A stretch of DNA of 64,000 bases from positions 3,720,001-3,784,000 of the forward strand of contig NZ_CP101153.1 of NCBI RefSeq assembly GCF_024298825.1, written 5' to 3'. The position numbers and the translations under genes were made by a program. Positions within the stretch are counted from its first letter, which is position 1, and each line of letters starts with the position of its first letter. The notes beneath the pieces are model-generated. The model made no database searches and was not told the DNA's origin. It worked only from the letters and a program-made list of their open reading frames with translations. The DNA is from Haloglomus salinum (GTDB lineage: Archaea > Halobacteriota > Halobacteria > Halobacteriales > Haloarculaceae). Positions 45,877 through 53,602 of this stretch are shown piece by piece.

Positions 45877-47847
45877 TCAACCGTCCTCCACGTCGTCGCC
45901 CATGCCGTCTTCGGCAGTTTCCGCGGCCTCCCCGCTCGACGGCTCCTTTCCGGCACGACCGGCGCCATCGAACGCGTCGAGGTGGCGGACCTGTTCGGAT
46001 ACCGTCTCGGCGCCGTCGATACGCCGGCGCAGCATGGCCTCGTGGGCGGCCTGCAGGTCCGCTACGGACATCGACACGTCGAGCGCTGCGAGTACGGCCT
46101 CGTCGAGGGCCTCCTGCGCGGCGGCGCCGTCGAGCAGTCGTTCGCCCGCCTCACGGATGACCTCGCGCTCGGCCGCCGAGAACCGTGCCGGGTCGGGTAT
46201 CGGGACGGACGACACCTCGTAGGTGAGAAGCTGGAGTGCGCCGCCGCCCTCGTGGCGCCCCCAGAGTTCGAGCATGACCTTGTGCAGGGTGGAGTTCAGC
46301 AGGTGCGGAACGACCGACTCGTACTCCGTCACGTCGACGCGCTGGATGGCGTTGGTCGGCGCGAACCCGCCCGCGTTCTCGACGGTGAAGACGCGCTCGT
46401 CGTAGAAGACGGGATGCAGGACCTCCGGGGCGGGTAACTCGCCGAGATTGAACCAGGGTGTGTGCTGGGAGACGGTCCGGCCCTCCGGAACGCCCTCGGC
46501 CGCTCCGTGCCGGATGTAGTCCAGGACGGCCTCGTGACCGTCCTCGCGGAGGGCTTCCTTCACCTCGCTCGCGAGGTCGGAGTGGGTGGGTGCCTCGACC
46601 CTCTCGCGAACTGCCTCGACGTACGGGTGCAGGTCGAAGAGGTACTGGTCGGTCGTCTCGAGCCGCCGGGACTCGATATCACGGAGGGAACGGATGGCGG
46701 GCCGCAGGACGGCGTCGGGAAGGTCCCACGCCGCCACGTCGCGCTCGTCGAGCAGGAAGAAGTCGTTGTTCCCGGTCTTGTTCCCGAACGAGACCGCCGC
46801 GTACGTGTCGAGCCGGACCAGCCCGTCGCTGTCGACCAGCCCGACGAACGGGGAGGGTGCCGTGAGGTAGTAGCCGAGTTTCGTGCCGCCGCGCTCCGCG
46901 AGTCGTCGTTGCGGAACGCTCACGACGCGATGTGAGTCCCGGACATCGAGCGCGAACGGCTGGCCCTCGGGGACCGTGCGGGCCGTCCCGACGATGTCCG
47001 CGAGCGTCCCGGGCACGACGGGCTCGTTCAGTCGGACGAAATCCGTCACGGTGTCGGCGCGTCCGTCCGGGTCGTCGCACCGCTCGACAAGCAGCAGGAC
47101 CGTGTCCACCATCGCGTCGAACGCACGCGCGGAGAACCCGACGACGGCCGCCACCGCCGCGTGGTCGTAGAGGAACTCCTGCAGGTCCTCTCCGTATCGT
47201 GTGTCGAGCCACTTGCTCGGGAGGACGAACCCGAGGCGGCCGCCCTCGCGGAGGAACTGCAGGCCGTGGGTGACGAAGTAGACGTAGGCGTCCGCTCTCG
47301 CCGAGAGTTTCCTGCTTCCGTCGTGGTAGGGCTGCTCGCCGTCCGGACCGTACGCACGCAGGTGGTCGCGGTAGTGGTCCCGGTCCCGTGACAGGGCCTC
47401 CTGTCGCAGGTACGGTGGGTTCCCGACCACGGCGTCGAACGTCGCCCCGCGGCCCGCGCCCCCCGGCAGGTCTCCGGGTGAGCAGTCGAAGAACGACGCC
47501 GTAACGGTCCGCGCATCCCCGTCCGACAGGGACCGATCTCCCGAGGTGAGATTGCTCGCGGTCAGGTCGAGCGCGGCCCGGTCGACATCGACCGCCACGA
47601 CCTGGTCGAGAACCTCGCGTCGGGTCGCCGTCGGGGCCGTCTCCGCGAGCCGGTCGCGCGCCGCGACGGCGAACCGTCCGCTCCCGGCAGCAGGGTCGAG
47701 CACGCGCGCCGGACCGCCCTGCGGGCGAATCGCCCACTCGCAGACCCCCGCCGCGATGGCCGGCGGAGTGTAGTAGATACCCAGCCCCTCGCGGCGAGCG
47801 TCGGGCTGGCTCGCCTCGTACCGCGCCCCCGGCGAGTCCTCGTCCAT
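45877..47847 (-). CDS. Eco57I-type N6-adenine DNA methyltransferase
   Basis: 656 residues. Motif I is VLDPAAGSGRFAVAARD (near 48), motif IV is NPPY in FDAVVGNPPYLRQEAL (near 144), and GLGIYYTPP at the N terminus is the usual entry (YYTP) of the family. VSFGNKTGNNDFFLL and the following region belong to a C-terminal target-recognition domain (TaqI/Eco57I-like). There is no nuclease domain in the protein or beside it, so it appears to be an orphan DNA methylase, with possible roles in regulation or protection. The tail (600-656) is Ala/Glu/Gly-rich. Confidence 0.9.
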   Translation of the reverse strand: MDEDSPGARYEASQPDARREGLGIYYTPPAIAAGVCEWAIRPQGGPARVLDPAAGSGRFAVAARDRLAETAPTATRREVLDQVVAVDVDRAALDLTASNLTSGDRSLSDGDARTVTASFFDCSPGDLPGGAGRGATFDAVVGNPPYLRQEALSRDRDHYRDHLRAYGPDGEQPYHDGSRKLSARADAYVYFVTHGLQFLREGGRLGFVLPSKWLDTRYGEDLQEFLYDHAAVAAVVGFSARAFDAMVDTVLLLVERCDDPDGRADTVTDFVRLNEPVVPGTLADIVGTARTVPEGQPFALDVRDSHRVVSVPQRRLAERGGTKLGYYLTAPSPFVGLVDSDGLVRLDTYAAVSFGNKTGNNDFFLLDERDVAAWDLPDAVLRPAIRSLRDIESRRLETTDQYLFDLHPYVEAVRERVEAPTHSDLASEVKEALREDGHEAVLDYIRHGAAEGVPEGRTVSQHTPWFNLGELPAPEVLHPVFYDERVFTVENAGGFAPTNAIQRVDVTEYESVVPHLLNSTLHKVMLELWGRHEGGGALQLLTYEVSSVPIPDPARFSAAEREVIREAGERLLDGAAAQEALDEAVLAALDVSMSVADLQAAHEAMLRRRIDGAETVSEQVRHLDAFDGAGRAGKEPSSGEAAETAEDGMGDDVEDG

Positions 47848-47934
47848 GGGCGTGGCTGCGGAGCCACCGGCATAACCGTTCGTCCTCGGTCGGCCCACGG
47901 TGGCTTTACCCTCCCGGCCGACCCTGTCCGGGAT

Positions 47935-48609
47935 ATGGACACAGAGGAGTTCCTGCCGTCGGTGACGGCGTCGTTCGCGTCGACCGTCGGTCCGGACGCC
48001 GACGAGGTGGTGCAGGAGATGGACGCTCGCGCCGACCGCGAGGGGTTCCCGACCGTGGGGCCGGCTGTGGGCGGCTGGCTCCGGCTGCTCGCCCGCGCTG
48101 TCGACGCCGAGCGGGTCTTCGAGTTCGGCTCCGGCTTCGGCTACTCGGCCTACTGGGTGGCCCCCGCGCTCCCGCCGGACGGCGAACTCGTCCTGACGGA
48201 GGTCGACGCGGACGAACTGGCCGACGCCCGTGACTACCTCACCCGCGGCGGCTACGCCGACCGCGCCGTGTTCGAGGCCGGCGACGCGCTCGCCACCGTC
48301 GAGCGCTACGACGGCACGTTCGACCTCGTACTGCTCGACCACGAGAAGGAACGCTACGCCGAGGCGTTCGAGGCCGTCCGCGGGAAGGTCCCCGTCGGTG
48401 GCATCGTCTGTGCGGACAACGCGATGACGGCCGGCCCCATCGAGTTCGGCGCACTCCGGGAACTGGTCGCCGGCGAGGACGGTATCGACACGACCGACGC
48501 GACCCGCGGTATCGCCGAGTACCTCCAGACCGTCCGCGCGGACCCGGCGTTCGAGACGACGCTGCTCCCCCTCGGGGAGGGATTGGCGGTGAGCATCCGG
48601 ACCGGCTAA
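47935..48609 (+). CDS. O-methyltransferase family 3
   Basis: 224 residues. The SAM motif is VFEFGSGFGYSAYW near 64, ELVLTEVDADEL gives the acidic ribose-binding strand, and LVLLDHEKERY with ADNAM are the metal-binding positions of catechol-type O-methyltransferases. The family is Mg2+-dependent, often acting on catechols or caffeoyl-CoA; the archaeal substrate is unknown. TTTACC about 22 bp before the ATG fits a leaderless start. Confidence 0.88.
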   Translation: MDTEEFLPSVTASFASTVGPDADEVVQEMDARADREGFPTVGPAVGGWLRLLARAVDAERVFEFGSGFGYSAYWVAPALPPDGELVLTEVDADELADARDYLTRGGYADRAVFEAGDALATVERYDGTFDLVLLDHEKERYAEAFEAVRGKVPVGGIVCADNAMTAGPIEFGALRELVAGEDGIDTTDATRGIAEYLQTVRADPAFETTLLPLGEGLAVSIRTG

Positions 48610-48746: not shown

Positions 48747-48932
48747 TCAGGCGACGGGTCGCTTCTTGCGTGTGACGTAGCCCGCGATGCGGTTGCGAAC
48801 GCCCTTGGATTCGACGTTGGTGGTCTCCGTGACGACCTCCTTGTTGTGGTCGAAGTCCTGGCCGAAGGCGTCCGGGTAGCGCTCGAGCAGTCGGTTCCCG
48901 ATCTTCTTGATGTAGGCGGGCTTGATAGCCAT
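48747..48932 (-). CDS. rps17e: 30S ribosomal protein S17e
   Basis: 61 residues, all conserved: MAIKPAYIKKIGNRLLERYP, FDHNKEVV and SKGVRNRIAGYVTRKK. The protein is highly basic against the acidic background. It is a small subunit protein of archaea and eukaryotes. A GTTTTTAGG box lies about 30 bp upstream on the - strand, so the start at 48932 is preferred to the codon at 48944. Confidence 0.95.
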   Translation of the reverse strand: MAIKPAYIKKIGNRLLERYPDAFGQDFDHNKEVVTETTNVESKGVRNRIAGYVTRKKRPVA

Positions 48933-48989: not shown

Positions 48990-49646
48990 TCAGGCGTCGG
49001 CACGACCGTCGCCGCGCCAGTTCACGAGGTCCTCGAACCGTTCCCACGCGGCCGCCTCACGCTCGCCCGCACAGGAGTCGACCACATCGGCGTAGTGAGC
49101 GATACGCGCCCGGAGCCGTTCGTCGTCGAAGCCGGGCACTCCGAGACGGGACGCCGCCACGGTCGCCTCGACGACGGCCGCCCGGGCCCGGTTGTGGACC
49201 GGCACCTCGCGCGAGCGCACGACCGACTCGACGGGAGAGAGCGCCCAGTCGACCCACTCCGTGCCGTCCTCGGCTCCCGCATCGAGGCGTTCGACCCGGA
49301 CCTGGGCCCAGGCGGCGGCGCTCTCGAGTACCGGCTCGTCGGCCTCGCGGACGCTACACGCGGCCTCGACGAAGTCGACGGGGTCGGTCCAGAACTGGAC
49401 GTACCCGTCCCCGCGCTCCTCGAAGTTGCGACGCGTCCGGGTCCGGCCCCAGGTCCGGGCCGTGACCGGGGCGGCCTTCGAGTCCGGTGCCGACAGGCCC
49501 AGCGCCGCCACGTTCCAGCGGTCGTTCGGGCCGCGCGTCGTCACGACGGACTCGGCCACGCCACGGCCGGCGAGGTCGACGGGCCACCCGGCACTGGGTG
49601 GGCTGTCTCCGTCACGAGGCGCCCTGGCTGGCGGGTCGGCGGTCAC
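48990..49646 (-). CDS. DUF447 family protein
   Basis: 218 residues from a GTG that overlaps the stop of the gene before it (GTGA). ESVVTTRGPNDRWNVAALGL, ARTWGRTRTRRNFEERGDGYVQF and the later ALSPVESVVRSREVPVHNRARAAVVEATV identify the DUF447 family, which has a split-barrel flavin-reductase-like fold. The family is often found with CitG-like genes in archaea and tetrahydromethanopterin users. It is the last gene of the cofD operon, so a role in a cofactor pathway is inferred. Confidence 0.82.
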   Translation of the reverse strand: MTADPPARAPRDGDSPPSAGWPVDLAGRGVAESVVTTRGPNDRWNVAALGLSAPDSKAAPVTARTWGRTRTRRNFEERGDGYVQFWTDPVDFVEAACSVREADEPVLESAAAWAQVRVERLDAGAEDGTEWVDWALSPVESVVRSREVPVHNRARAAVVEATVAASRLGVPGFDDERLRARIAHYADVVDSCAGEREAAAWERFEDLVNWRGDGRADA

Positions 49647-50488
49647 ACCGACACCCCCCGCCGGAGCGCGACGAACAGGGCGCCCGCCGTCAGGTCGGCC
49701 GTCGTGCCGGGGTTGACGCCCTCGGCCACGAGTTCGTCCCCGAGCGCTGCCGGGTCGGTCTCGCCGTCGCGCGCGGCCCGGGCGCGCTCGCGGATGGAGA
49801 CGGCCGTCTCGTGGTCGTGGGTCTTGACGACGAACGTATCGAGTTCGGTGGCGAGCAGGTCGAGGAAGACGCGGGAGGCACGGTCCGGGACGGGCCCGTC
49901 GTCGGACAGGATGGCCTCGGCGGCCTCGAACACGCGCGGGAAGCCGTCGACCCACTCGGCGGCGACGCCGTCGACATCGGCCGAGCGCGCCATCACGTCC
50001 GCCAGCGTGAGGCCGCGCTCGCGGAGTACCGGCTCGGCGTCACCGCCCCGCCGGACATCGAGGTCGGCCATCCCATCGGGCGGGTCGTCGACAGCCACGT
50101 CGACCGCGTCGAAGGCGCGGTAGAACCCGACGGCGTCGTCGACCGTGGTCGCGGTCACCACGGCCGCAGCCCCGTCCGGCGAGAGGTCGTCCGCGGCGTC
50201 GGCGTAGGCGAGCGGCAGGACGGTGAGGATGGCCCCGAACTGGGTGTTGCCACCCTGCTGGTGGCTCATCCCCTCGATGGCACGCCGGAAGGCCGCCCCG
50301 AGCGGCGCGTCCGGCACGGCCCGGAAGGCCGGTTCGGCCCCGACCGCGCCGGTGAGGAAGTGCTCGAACCGGAGGTCGTCGTGGTCGTGGTGGCGGTCGA
50401 CGTTTCCGGGCTTCGGCGTCCCGGTGACCTCCAGCAACAGCGCGAGTACCGCGTCCTGTGCCGCGGTCCGGGGACTCGGACTCGTCAC
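49643..50488 (-). CDS. CitG-like (triphosphoribosyl-dephospho-CoA synthase family) protein
   Basis: 281 residues. LEVTGTPKPGNVDRHHDHDDLRFEHF is the ATP/dephospho-CoA binding signature of the family, and IEGMSHQQGGNTQFG with the final VNPGTTADLTAGALF are its conserved end motifs. In bacteria CitG makes the citrate lyase prosthetic group, but no citrate lyase gene is here, and CitG-like genes also occur in methanopterin gene sets. It starts with a GTG overlapping the stop of the upstream gene, and its stop overlaps DUF447. Confidence 0.85.
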   Translation of the reverse strand: MTSPSPRTAAQDAVLALLLEVTGTPKPGNVDRHHDHDDLRFEHFLTGAVGAEPAFRAVPDAPLGAAFRRAIEGMSHQQGGNTQFGAILTVLPLAYADAADDLSPDGAAAVVTATTVDDAVGFYRAFDAVDVAVDDPPDGMADLDVRRGGDAEPVLRERGLTLADVMARSADVDGVAAEWVDGFPRVFEAAEAILSDDGPVPDRASRVFLDLLATELDTFVVKTHDHETAVSIRERARAARDGETDPAALGDELVAEGVNPGTTADLTAGALFVALRRGVSV

Positions 50489-51294
50489 CGGTCGCCACCT
50501 CCGTCGGCCGCAGTCGGTCGCCCTGCGGGAGCCGACTCGTCGAACCACTCCGTCACCGCGGCCCGGACGCGCCGCAGGACCTCGGGCCGGTCGCTCGGCC
50601 GACCGACCGAAACCGCGTCGGCGCCGTACGAGAGGTACTCGCGGACCGTGCGGCGGTCCCGGACGCCGTTGTTCGCGACGACGACGGCGTCGGGGCAGGC
50701 CGCGGCCACCGCGGCCACGGCGCCCTCCGAGTCCATCGCGTCGACGTGGAGGAGGGCCGCGCCGGCCGCGTGTGCGCGGCGACACACCGCCGGCAGGTCG
50801 ACCCCCGGTACCTCCGTCCGGCACTTGACGCTGACCGTCGCGCCGGCCTCGCTCGCGGCCCGGACCTGTGCGGCGAGTCGCTCCGTGTCGCTGAGGAGCG
50901 ACTGCCCGGCGCCGGCCGCGCACATCTCGTCCTGCCGGCAGTGGGCGTTCACCTCGATGATGGCGTCGTGGCGGGCACAGACCTCGGCAGCCTCGGCGAC
51001 CGGGTCGGGACCGGCCGCGCGGACGTTGAACGCCGGGCGGAGGGGCGCGTCGGCGAGTGCGGCGAGTTCGTCATCGACGAATCCGAGCGGGTCCTCCGGG
51101 AGGAACTCATCACGGTCCCGTTCGACCAGCTCGCGGGCGGCCTCCCGGGTCGGCTCGTCCAGCGCGATACCGCCGAGGACGGCGCAGCCGACGTGGGGCG
51201 CGGCCGCCCGGGCCCAGGCCGCGTCCGACTCGCCGGAGAGCGACGCGGCGGCGACACGGGGCACGAACGCCGGCGTGTCGGCAGCCGGGGTCAT
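50485..51294 (-). CDS. Dihydrouridine-synthase-like TIM-barrel flavoprotein
   Basis: 269 residues. [54 protein letters not shown] and [30 protein letters not shown] are the standard Dus-like strands and loops with the catalytic-type Cys and the FMN-phosphate site at the end. It is shorter than true tRNA dihydrouridine synthases (no C-terminal tRNA-binding domain), so it may act on a small molecule. Positioned between cofD and the CitG-like gene, with ATGA and GTGA overlaps. Confidence 0.8.
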
Positions 51295-52286
51295 GCGCCG
51301 ACGACCTCCAGCGCCTCCTGGCACGCGCGCGCCACGCGCTCGGCATCGGCCGCCGTGGAGAGCGTCGTGTCCGTGCGGACCACCGGGCGGTCGAGGTCGG
51401 TGCCGTCCTCGTCGTCGAGGACGAACGCGTCGACCCCGGGGTAGGCATTCGCGACGCCGCGTGTCGAGGGCTCGTAGCCGACCGCTTCCATCAGCTTCGC
51501 CGCCGGCCCGGAGAACACCCGGTCCTCGACGAACGGGGAGACGGCGACCGTCGGCGTCCGGTCGAGCGCCTCGTGGAACGCGTCCATCGCGGTCATCGGG
51601 CCGATGCTCGTGACCGGGTTCGAGGGCCCGATGATGACCGGCTCCGTGAGCGCCGTCAGTACCTCGTCGGTCGGCTCGGCGGCTCCGGCGCCCCGGAACT
51701 CGACGGACTCGACGGCCGGTTCCGCGCGCCGGTGGACCCAGAACTCCTGGAAGTGCATCGGCCCCTCGTCGGTGTGGACGATGCTCGCGACGGGGTCGTC
51801 GCTCATCGGCAGGAGCGTCCGTTCGAGGCCGAAGGCGTCGGCGAGACGCCCGGTGACCTCGGTGAGCGAGTGGCCCTCGTCGAGCAGCGAGGTGCGGGTG
51901 ACGTGGACGGCGCGGTCGCGGTCGCCGATCTCCATGAACTCCGCGACGCCGGAGAAGCGCCGCCAGCGGGCGATGTCGCGGCCGGTAGTCTGGCGGTCGT
52001 CGGGGAGATAGCGCGGCCCCGGCCCGAGTCCGGCCGCGTCGGCGAGTTCCCGCAGGCGGTCGTGGGTCGCGGTTGTGTCGTCCTCGATACCCCACCAGCG
52101 CTCGCGGTCGAGGACGCCGCCCTCCAGGAAGAGGACCGTATCGAGGTCCGGACAGACGAGGTGGCCGCCCAGCTCGACATCGTCGCCGGTGTTGGCGACG
52201 ACGGTCGTCGCAGCGGGGTCGAAGACGGCGTCCGCGCCGGCCAGCAGCTTCGGCGTCCCCGTGCCGCCGGCGAGGAAGGTGACCAT
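51291..52286 (-). CDS. cofD: 2-phospho-L-lactate transferase CofD
   Basis: 331 residues. [21 protein letters not shown] is the Gly-rich start of Cof[26 protein letters not shown] the next conserved block, and [15 protein letters not shown] the third. CofD joins the phospholactyl (or phosphoenolpyruvyl) group to the deazaflavin Fo, forming F420-0 in cofactor F420 synthesis. It leads the overlapping operon: cofD, Dus-like, CitG-like, DUF447. The ATG at 52286 is used. Confidence 0.95.
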
Positions 52287-52387: not shown

Positions 52388-53602
52388 ATGGTCACCATCA
52401 AGGACTCCGTCCACGACCACATCGACATCGAGGGTGTGGCGGAGCCCCTGCTCGCGACGCCGCCGGTCCAGCGGCTCCGGCGCATCCGGCAACTGGGGAC
52501 CGTACAGCTGGTGTATCCGTCGGCCAACCACACGCGCTTCGAGCACTCGCTCGGGGTGCTCCACCTCGCCGACCGCGCGCTCGAGCACCTCTCGGTCGCC
52601 GGCCAGCAGGCCGAGCGCGTCCGGGCGGCCGCGCTCCTCCACGACATCGGGCACTCCCCCTACTCGCACAACACCGAGGCGGTCGTGGAGCGGTACACGG
52701 GTCGCGCCCACGACGACGTAGGGCCGCTCATCACCGAGGGGTCGGTCGCGCGCGTGCTGACCGAGCACGACCTGGACCCGGCGAAGGTCGCCGGGCTCGT
52801 CCGTGGCGAGGGGGAGCTGGGCCAGCTCGTCTCCGGTGAGCTCGACGTCGACCGGATGGACTACCTCGTCCGGGACGCCCACCACACCGGCGTCCCGTAC
52901 GGTACCATCGACCAGGCGCGGCTCGTCCGGGAGCTGGCGCTGGTCGACGGCGAACTCGCGCTCGACGAGGGGAACGTCCAGACCGCCGAATCCCTGCTGC
53001 TGGCCCGGGCACTGATGAACCCGACCGTCTACAACCACCACGCCGCCCGCGTGGGGAAGGCGATGCTCCGACGCGGCGCCGAGCGCCTGCTCGAGTGCGG
53101 CGTCGCGCCAGAGGAACTCCGGCGGATGGACGACTGGGCGTTCCACGTCGCACTCCGGAACGAGGACGCGACCGCCGCTATCGCCCACCGACTCGACCGC
53201 CGGGACCTGTTCAAGCGCGCGGTCTGGGCCGAACTCGTCGACGTGCCCGACGACCTGCTCGCTGCCGACCATCACGAGGTCCAGTCGCTTGAGGCGGACA
53301 TCGCCGACCGGGCCGGGGTCGACATGGACGCGGTCATCGTGGACGTGCCCGGCGAACCGCGGATGAAGGAGTCGACGACGAAGGTCGTCGTCAACGGTGA
53401 GGCCCGGCGCCTGGACCAGCAGTCGGCGCTCGTCGACGCGCTCCGGACGGCCCAGCGCGAACAGTGGCGGATGGGCGTCTACTGCCCCGCCGAACACACC
53501 GGGACCGTCGGTCCGGCCGCCGAGGCCGTCCTCGGTCTGGAACTCGACGCGCTCGTGACGGACGTGCGAACCCGGATGCACGCGCGCCTCGACGACTTCT
53601 GA
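52388..53602 (+). CDS. HD-domain phosphohydrolase (SAMHD1/dGTPase-like)
   Basis: 404 residues. The HD site is formed by His in HTRFEHSLGVLHLA, His-Asp in ALLHDIGHSPYSH, and the late Asp of GELDVDRMDYLVRDAHHTG. The last block is typical of the SAMHD1/YdhJ group that hydrolyses dNTPs. KDSVHDHIDIEGVAEPLLATPPVQRLRRI at the start is also characteristic. The C-terminal 100 residues are less conserved. It starts 102 bp from divergent cofD. Confidence 0.92.
   Translation: MVTIKDSVHDHIDIEGVAEPLLATPPVQRLRRIRQLGTVQLVYPSANHTRFEHSLGVLHLADRALEHLSVAGQQAERVRAAALLHDIGHSPYSHNTEAVVERYTGRAHDDVGPLITEGSVARVLTEHDLDPAKVAGLVRGEGELGQLVSGELDVDRMDYLVRDAHHTGVPYGTIDQARLVRELALVDGELALDEGNVQTAESLLLARALMNPTVYNHHAARVGKAMLRRGAERLLECGVAPEELRRMDDWAFHVALRNEDATAAIAHRLDRRDLFKRAVWAELVDVPDDLLAADHHEVQSLEADIADRAGVDMDAVIVDVPGEPRMKESTTKVVVNGEARRLDQQSALVDALRTAQREQWRMGVYCPAEHTGTVGPAAEAVLGLELDALVTDVRTRMHARLDDF

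Follow-up and report, generated by a model that had tools for sequence, protein, structure and literature searches.

The stretch of DNA analysed here, 64,000 nucleotides of the Haloglomus salinum genome (contig NZ_CP101153.1, positions 3,720,001 to 3,784,000; hereafter the window), carries a four-gene operon on its minus strand that is led by cofD, a gene of F420 biosynthesis. From the upstream end, the genes are:

51291..52286, minus strand: cofD, 2-phospho-L-lactate transferase of F420 biosynthesis (331 aa; TIGR01819, PF01933)
50485..51294, minus strand: Dus-like protein, a TIM barrel of MJ0144 type that has no tRNA-binding end (269 aa; PF01207)
49643..50488, minus strand: CitG-like protein (281 aa, GTG start; PF01874)
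48990..49646, minus strand: DUF447 protein (218 aa, GTG start; PF04289 and PF20766)

As described in the initial annotation, the genes overlap by 4 bp at all three junctions, with ATGA between cofD and the Dus-like gene, GTGA between the Dus-like and CitG-like genes, and GTGA again between the CitG-like and DUF447 genes, an arrangement from which the initial annotation deduced that the four proteins are probably made in fixed ratio; the CofD protein scores 376.8 bits against TIGR01819, above the cut-off of 257.45. The four genes are two modules, cofD–Dus and CitG–DUF447, rather than one branch, and the absences of the second module are shared with mptG, which encodes a homolog of the β-ribofuranosylaminobenzene 5′-phosphate (RFAP) synthase family, and with mer.

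Throughout, class, family and phylum refer to groupings around the window genome, and halobacterial denotes members of the class. DUF447 is present in 76 of the 79 class genomes sampled, and the only ones without it, G001, G007 and G018 (all 99% complete), are the same three that lack CitG (present in 76/79) and MptG (TIGR00144 matches in 76/79, with 75 of the 79 genomes passing the subfamily cut-off of 113.5). All three retain cofD, which is present in 24 of 24 genomes chosen for the cofD search; in each of them a Dus-like gene adjoins cofD, in a stretch without CitG or DUF447. Of the 26 genomes that belong to the same family as G018, 22 have both MptG and CitG and the other four have neither, the fourth being G216, which is 72% complete; three of the 22 MptG matches (G205, G209 and G213) are partial and below the cut-off. 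A cofD tree places G018 next to G023 within its own genus (support 0.99) and G001 and G007 elsewhere in the family, which points to two independent losses. Were the absences random and independent, an exact 3-in-79 match would arise with a chance of 1 in 79,079, but as this figure ignores kinship the two shared loss events are the fairer measure. Among the named controls, M. jannaschii, H. volcanii, S. acidocaldarius and M. acetivorans have matches for DUF447, MptG and CitG, and S. acidocaldarius has them despite giving no match for cofD or for TIGR00736, the model of the MJ0144 family; E. coli also matches the CitG profile, as expected, presumably through its own CitG. Phylogenetic profiling, which the initial annotation had proposed, was partly in line with its expectations when done with mptG, cofD, mch and mer: CitG and DUF447 track mptG and mer, which bears out the suggestion that they go with methanopterin-type genes, whereas cofD and mch are kept where CitG and DUF447 are lost. 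Mch was found in 79 of 79 class genomes, G001, G007 and G018 included, and was rejected as a member of the module.

Gene order was compared in 11–17 kb stretches around DUF447 from 75 other class genomes, picked by their DUF447 match. CitG accompanies DUF447 in all 75, and in 62 of them the four genes follow one another on a single strand as cofD–Dus–CitG–DUF447, more often than chance would give; Dus and CitG are 0.5–2.9 kb apart in six of the 62. The other 13 comprise eight stretches without cofD and Dus, two without Dus, one without cofD, and two in which cofD–Dus stands apart on the opposite strand. In sum, cofD and Dus are together in 64 of the 75 stretches, and in all eight genomes without both of them near DUF447 the two genes adjoin each other at another genomic location. 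Overlaps of 4 bp occur in 66 of 74 CitG–DUF447 pairs, 44 of 65 Dus–CitG pairs and 35 of 64 cofD–Dus pairs, with 14 further cofD–Dus pairs overlapping by one base pair. Of the flanking genes of the window that served as controls, a gene for an HD-domain protein was found in 28 of the 75 stretches and two others in none. Two class genomes, G069 and G002 (L304 and L305), have cofD–CitG–DUF447 and no TIGR00736 match anywhere in the genome. Nineteen further families of the phylum, sampled at 20 loci, extend the picture beyond the class: CitG is with DUF447 at 17 of these loci, a Dus-like gene is present at 12 (weak in L154) and cofD at five, and the full four-gene set is found at L139 and L153; the operon, in part or whole, is therefore older than the class. 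The initial annotation had made its proposal turn on conservation beyond close relatives, which holds, and had placed the system in haloarchaea, a restriction that is not supported.

A set of 32 chosen genomes was searched for Mer with TIGR03555; it includes 21 of the 26 that make up G018's family (all but G205, G209, G213, G215 and G216; the Mer of G205 was seen at locus L301). Matches of 272–327 bits were found in 29 of the 32, the exceptions being G001, G007 and G018: in this search G001 and G007 had no Mer match, and the best match of G018 reached 133 bits. This ortholog level was chosen after viewing the list of matches, among which the remainder reach at most 163 bits, except for a second copy in G208. 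Two halobacterial Mer proteins that we tested against NF002619 score 420.5 and 435.8 bits, above the cut-off of 276, and in this they resemble the F420-dependent methylene-tetrahydromethanopterin (methylene-H4MPT) reductase.

In the genus g98, Mer, CitG, DUF447 and mptG are contiguous at four loci in three genomes (L298, L299, L300 and L301). At L298 the Mer–CitG junction is a GTGA overlap, the CitG–DUF447 junction an ATGA overlap, and DUF447 and mptG meet at TGATG. Methionine synthase genes lie divergently beside Mer, one at L298 and two in tandem at L299 and L300; the second of the two at L299 scores above the NF003317 'methionine synthase' cut-off (488.6 against 406 bits) and the first below it, and there was no methionine synthase match beside Mer at L301. 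Another species of the genus, G206 (L302), has the usual cofD–Dus–CitG–DUF447 order. At a locus of G002, cofE and mer come after mptG, with two other genes in between, and in H. volcanii cofE and mer are numbered consecutively (HVO_1936 and HVO_1937; table in PMC8305020). A search for split MetE in G007 gave 0 matches within 0.4 Mb of 2.09 Mb, an uninformative result. We also observed that G208 carries the methionine synthase pair together with Mer–CitG–DUF447–mptG twice, on two contigs (L299 and L300).

In the window genome mptG lies at C1:1082344-1083315, 2.7 Mb from the operon along the contig, and its product scores 171 bits against TIGR00144; the mptG homolog of H. volcanii is HVO_2628. 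The equivalent of Arg26, which takes part in binding para-aminobenzoate (pABA), is kept in 17 of 17 halobacterial MptG proteins examined, of 76 found. DUF447 and mptG are also neighbors in bacteria. A search seeded with 3b5m and three archaeal DUF447 sequences gave 368 relatives; of the best 80, 79 have titles naming genera that we take to be Planctomycetes, and one is titled 'bacterium' only. An mptG homolog is present in 58 of these 80 loci, adjoining DUF447 on the same strand in 56 and lying about 6 kb away on the opposite strand in L259 and L296; the 22 loci without mptG have about 10 kb of downstream sequence in nine cases and less in the rest. The CitG, Dus and cofD profiles gave no match in the 80 loci. 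The locus of Lacipirellula limnantheis (L254) runs from a pterin-binding protein, which scores 158.8 bits against TIGR00284, below its cut-off, through a pabB/trpE-type chorismate-binding gene and a pabA/trpG-type glutamine amidotransferase to DUF447 and mptG. If the pabA/pabB-type pair makes pABA, DUF447 would stand here between pABA synthesis and a pABA-using enzyme. Passages of a paper on methanotrophs describe further H4MPT gene islands, with the order orf19–orf20–afpA–orf21–orf22 (PMC3615186).

The window CitG-like protein scores 211.1 bits against PF01874. It resembles the CitG/MdcB triphosphoribosyl-dephospho-CoA synthases in its conserved cores, PKPGNVDR, NT.FG and NPG..AD, and in having a sequence relative of solved structure (3h9p), but differs from them in scoring only 32.4, 35.5 and 39.3 bits against TIGR03125 (CitG), TIGR03132 (MdcB) and NF002315, whose cut-offs are 272.3, 282.35 and 280; it also falls below the cut-off of the PRK01237 model. 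A Gln replaces a His in 75 of 76 haloarchaeal CitG-like proteins, with PKPGNVDR kept, the exception being L057 of genome G021; His is present in 17 of 17 others. The DUF447 protein matches PF04289 (75.3 bits) and PF20766 (52.3 bits), and has solved relatives in 2iml and 2nr4 and, by profile, also in 2ptf and 3b5m. Here Gln stands for Asn in 74 of 75 haloarchaeal sequences and Asn is found in 18 of 18 others, in a comparison that leaves out L057 as well as L147 and L158, which the profile found weakly or not at all. Together with a replacement in MptG that is discussed below, these parallel changes would fit a shared, altered substrate, and as clade-typical residues they suggest that the product is a haloarchaeal variant and not methanopterin as such. 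Another connection for DUF447, to cannulae, is drawn in PMC13140500, in passages that give no evidence for it.

One explanation for these results, which we favor with moderate confidence, is that cofD and the Dus-like gene serve F420 while the CitG-like and DUF447 proteins and MptG make an RFAP-derived, methanopterin-type pterin for Mer. It builds on the observed gene order, shared absences, clusters and family scores; all the reactions, their end product and the idea that Mer works without folate are our inference from these. MptG would join aminobenzoate to phosphoribosyl pyrophosphate, giving a ribosyl-aminobenzene unit; DUF447, whose fold is presumably a flavin-type split barrel, would open the ribose ring by reduction; and the CitG-like protein would attach an alpha-linked ribose phosphate, this addition being the type of reaction that CitG carries out. 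The resulting pterin would be the one-carbon (C1) carrier for F420-dependent Mer, and the methyl product of Mer would pass by way of split MetE to methionine. The rationale of the operon would then be that both cofactors of one enzyme, Mer, are produced together: F420 and the pterin. If this is true, haloarchaea carry a second C1 cofactor that they were previously thought to lack; published claims that they have no methanopterin-specific enzymes and a folate-dependent Mer would be wrong; and DUF447 and the archaeal CitG-like protein would have a predicted place in pterin biosynthesis, close to the steps that follow RFAP synthase. Among the papers listed by searches of one literature collection, none proposes this in its title or opening abstract. 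A more detailed version, which taken as a whole we consider unlikely, posits two C1 carriers: Mch-type reactions would run on folate, and Mer on a new RFAP-derived relative of methanopterin with a changed aromatic or sugar portion. In this version the Dus-like protein would also reduce the enolpyruvyl/lactyl group of F420 and so, in genomes that have it, close the archaeal CofX or CofB gap.

The pterin explanation must be weighed with caution. The module resembles tetrahydromethanopterin biosynthesis in that an MptG homolog passes the TIGR00144 cut-off in nearly all class genomes (75/79), that the CitG-like and DUF447 proteins are found with MptG, and that DUF447 adjoins mptG in Planctomycetes; it departs from that pathway in several respects, and these, with the further points gathered here, count against the explanation. 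The sole halobacterial MptG tested against the equivalog NF040726, that of L298, fails it (158.1 against 328 bits). At the position of Asp19, the 17 halobacterial MptG proteins have Asn (16) or Ser (one), and that of L298 has Thr, whereas Asp is found in the 30 best-scoring MptG proteins of the other families in the phylum; planctomycete MptG is also variable at this position. According to passages of PMC6787355, Asp19 is important for pABA binding in the M. thermautotrophicus enzyme, where Asp19Asn is active with pABA binding 3–4 times weaker and a Vmax of about one-third, and Asp19Ala is inactive. The Gln residues of the haloarchaeal CitG-like and DUF447 proteins are further differences from the pathway, and Mch shows no link to the module: kept where CitG–DUF447–mptG is lost, it is there independent of it, and haloarchaeal C1 metabolism in part goes on without the module, probably with folate. 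Mer differs from the F420-dependent methylene-H4MPT reductase in that none of the 32 genomes reaches the TIGR03555 cut-off of 348.7. The mptG match of L301 is in pieces, in different frames. No H4MPT-related neighbor was seen at 17 halobacterial mptG loci, where shadow reading frames reduced the clarity of the comparison, and no mptG was found near DUF447 at the 20 loci outside the class. The absences shared within the class go back to only two loss events, both in one family, and outside the class absences mismatch: in a phylum sample of 148 genomes, with DUF447 in 140 and MptG in 144, the two disagree in six, namely G161, which has DUF447 and no MptG match, and G094, G112, G119, G163 and G167, which have MptG and no DUF447 match, with completeness of 89% or more in three of the five. 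Among the 144 MptG matches, nine fall below the cut-off, all of them in genomes with DUF447 (G002, G087, G106, G128, G141, G157, G165, G181 and G200). Lastly, the gene for ribosomal protein S17e occurs in 68 of the 75 class stretches and lies no more than 214 bases away, counted irrespective of strand, in 53 of them; as this unrelated gene is also a conserved neighbor, adjacency alone is weak proof of shared function.

Several of these points agree with the published view, in which tetrahydrofolate is the haloarchaeal C1 carrier and Mer works on folate (Pfeiffer and Dyall-Smith, PMC8305020 section 3.5). Under such a scenario both Mer and Mch would use tetrahydrofolate, and the MptG homolog, the CitG-like protein and DUF447 would make some other ribosylated aromatic compound with no C1 role. 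The occurrence of Mch in all 79 genomes, those without the module included, the low equivalog score of the one halobacterial MptG tested and the replaced Asp19 are consistent with this, but the loss of mer together with the three genes is left unexplained, as are the Mer–CitG–DUF447–mptG clusters beside methionine synthase genes; we consider folate as the only carrier rather unlikely. The initial annotation had instead assigned all four genes to a single undescribed branch of F420 or pterin metabolism. The tight gene order and the overlaps speak for this, but genomes without CitG and DUF447 keep cofD–Dus, the CitG and DUF447 absences are shared with mptG and mer, and S. acidocaldarius matches CitG and DUF447 without either cofD or TIGR00736; the separate loss of the two halves led us to reject the single four-gene branch, which we now regard as very improbable.

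The Dus-like protein scores 35.8 bits against PF01207, above the cut-off of 20.4, in a match that stops at profile position 241 of 311. Its best NCBI model is TIGR00736, at 115.5 bits and below the cut-off of 218.7, although the NAHCRQ signature is common to it and an above-cut-off member of that family (G178, L179) and the two are of similar size. With 269 aa it has no C-terminal tRNA-binding domain of the tRNA dihydrouridine synthases; the description of the protein as truncated is accurate for this missing end and misleading for its length, as the aligned relatives are equally short. Each of the 78 relatives aligned keeps Cys119, Lys157, Arg159, His183, Asp185, Asn209 and Arg232 (the alignment leaves out the divergent L154 copy, whose stretch has no NAHCRQ motif), and we take Cys119 to be the catalytic Cys of Dus and the invariant Cys, Lys and His to be Dus-type residues. 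The relatives have AHCRQ and HxD where the motifs of tRNA Dus, NxGCP and HGRT, stand. An AlphaFold2 prediction from the single sequence had a mean predicted local distance difference test score of 51.1 and was not used. The PF01207 match would suit a dihydrouridine synthase that acts on RNA through a smaller RNA-binding surface and is in the operon by chance, but the early end of that match, the replaced motifs and the cofD–Dus pairing that outlasts the break-up of the operon make this quite improbable.

Archaeal F420 synthesis has a step with no assigned enzyme, for which the Dus-like gene is a specific candidate. Tentatively, its product could be the missing archaeal reductase for the reduced lactyl group of F420, a possibility that concerns the cofD–Dus module only, is compatible with the pterin explanation, and appears to us somewhat unlikely overall. 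It could act on dehydro-F420-0 to give F420-0, as the hypothetical CofX, or on phosphoenolpyruvate to give 2-phospholactate; a flavin ene-reductase could work at either stage. Consistent with such a role, the gene is with cofD in 64 of the 75 stretches and beside it elsewhere in all eight genomes that lack both near DUF447, it stays beside cofD in G001, G007 and G018, which lost the pterin module, and S. acidocaldarius, with no TIGR00736 match, has no cofD match either; the presumed Dus-type Cys, Lys and His are kept while the substrate motif differs. Passages of Bashiri et al. 2019 (PMC6450877) expect an archaeal dehydro-F420-0 reductase, 'CofX', and look for it among the neighbors of cofE. 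The Dus-like protein may be a functional analogue of the dehydro-F420-0 reductase domain of mycobacterial FbiB, although that domain has a nitroreductase fold (described in the same passages) and the Dus-like protein, by family, a Dus-type barrel. Counting against the idea, cofD occurs without a TIGR00736 match in G069 and G002 of the class and in G084, G096 and G131 (86% complete); with these five cofD owners the Dus-like protein is not a general archaeal F420 reductase, and we rejected that broader form. Moreover, archaeal CofC/CofD prefer 2-phospholactate in vitro, and passages of PMC8764529 argue that this is their substrate; and at 10 of the 20 loci of other families the Dus-like gene is with CitG with no cofD in the stretch (one of them being the weak L154).

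The operon is flanked in the window by the next same-strand gene downstream of DUF447 and by a divergent neighbor of cofD:

48750..48932, minus strand: ribosomal protein S17e
52388-53602, plus strand: HD-domain protein (HD and HD_assoc_2)

Among plasmid records, the best match of the window cofD is in Natrinema thermotolerans, at 63.8% identity. The annotated order in that species (CP031304, L328) is cofD, 'dihydropyrimidine dehydrogenase' in the Dus position, three other genes, CitG, DUF447 and S17e; the record, 987 kb long and labelled a plasmid, bears both the operon and S17e and may therefore hold essential chromosomal genes. In the phylum sample, five near-complete genomes with DUF447 (G128, G157, G165, G181 and G200) have weak RFAP synthase matches, below the cut-off, and may carry a diverged or replaced RFAP synthase. 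Within the Dus-like gene of the window, ARAGORN called an antisense tRNA-Arg (GCG) at 50620-50692 on the plus strand, a call that probably arose by chance in coding DNA rich in GC. A long open reading frame at 45877-48342 on the minus strand has an NPPY motif in its translation, which we take to be typical of adenine DNA methyltransferases.

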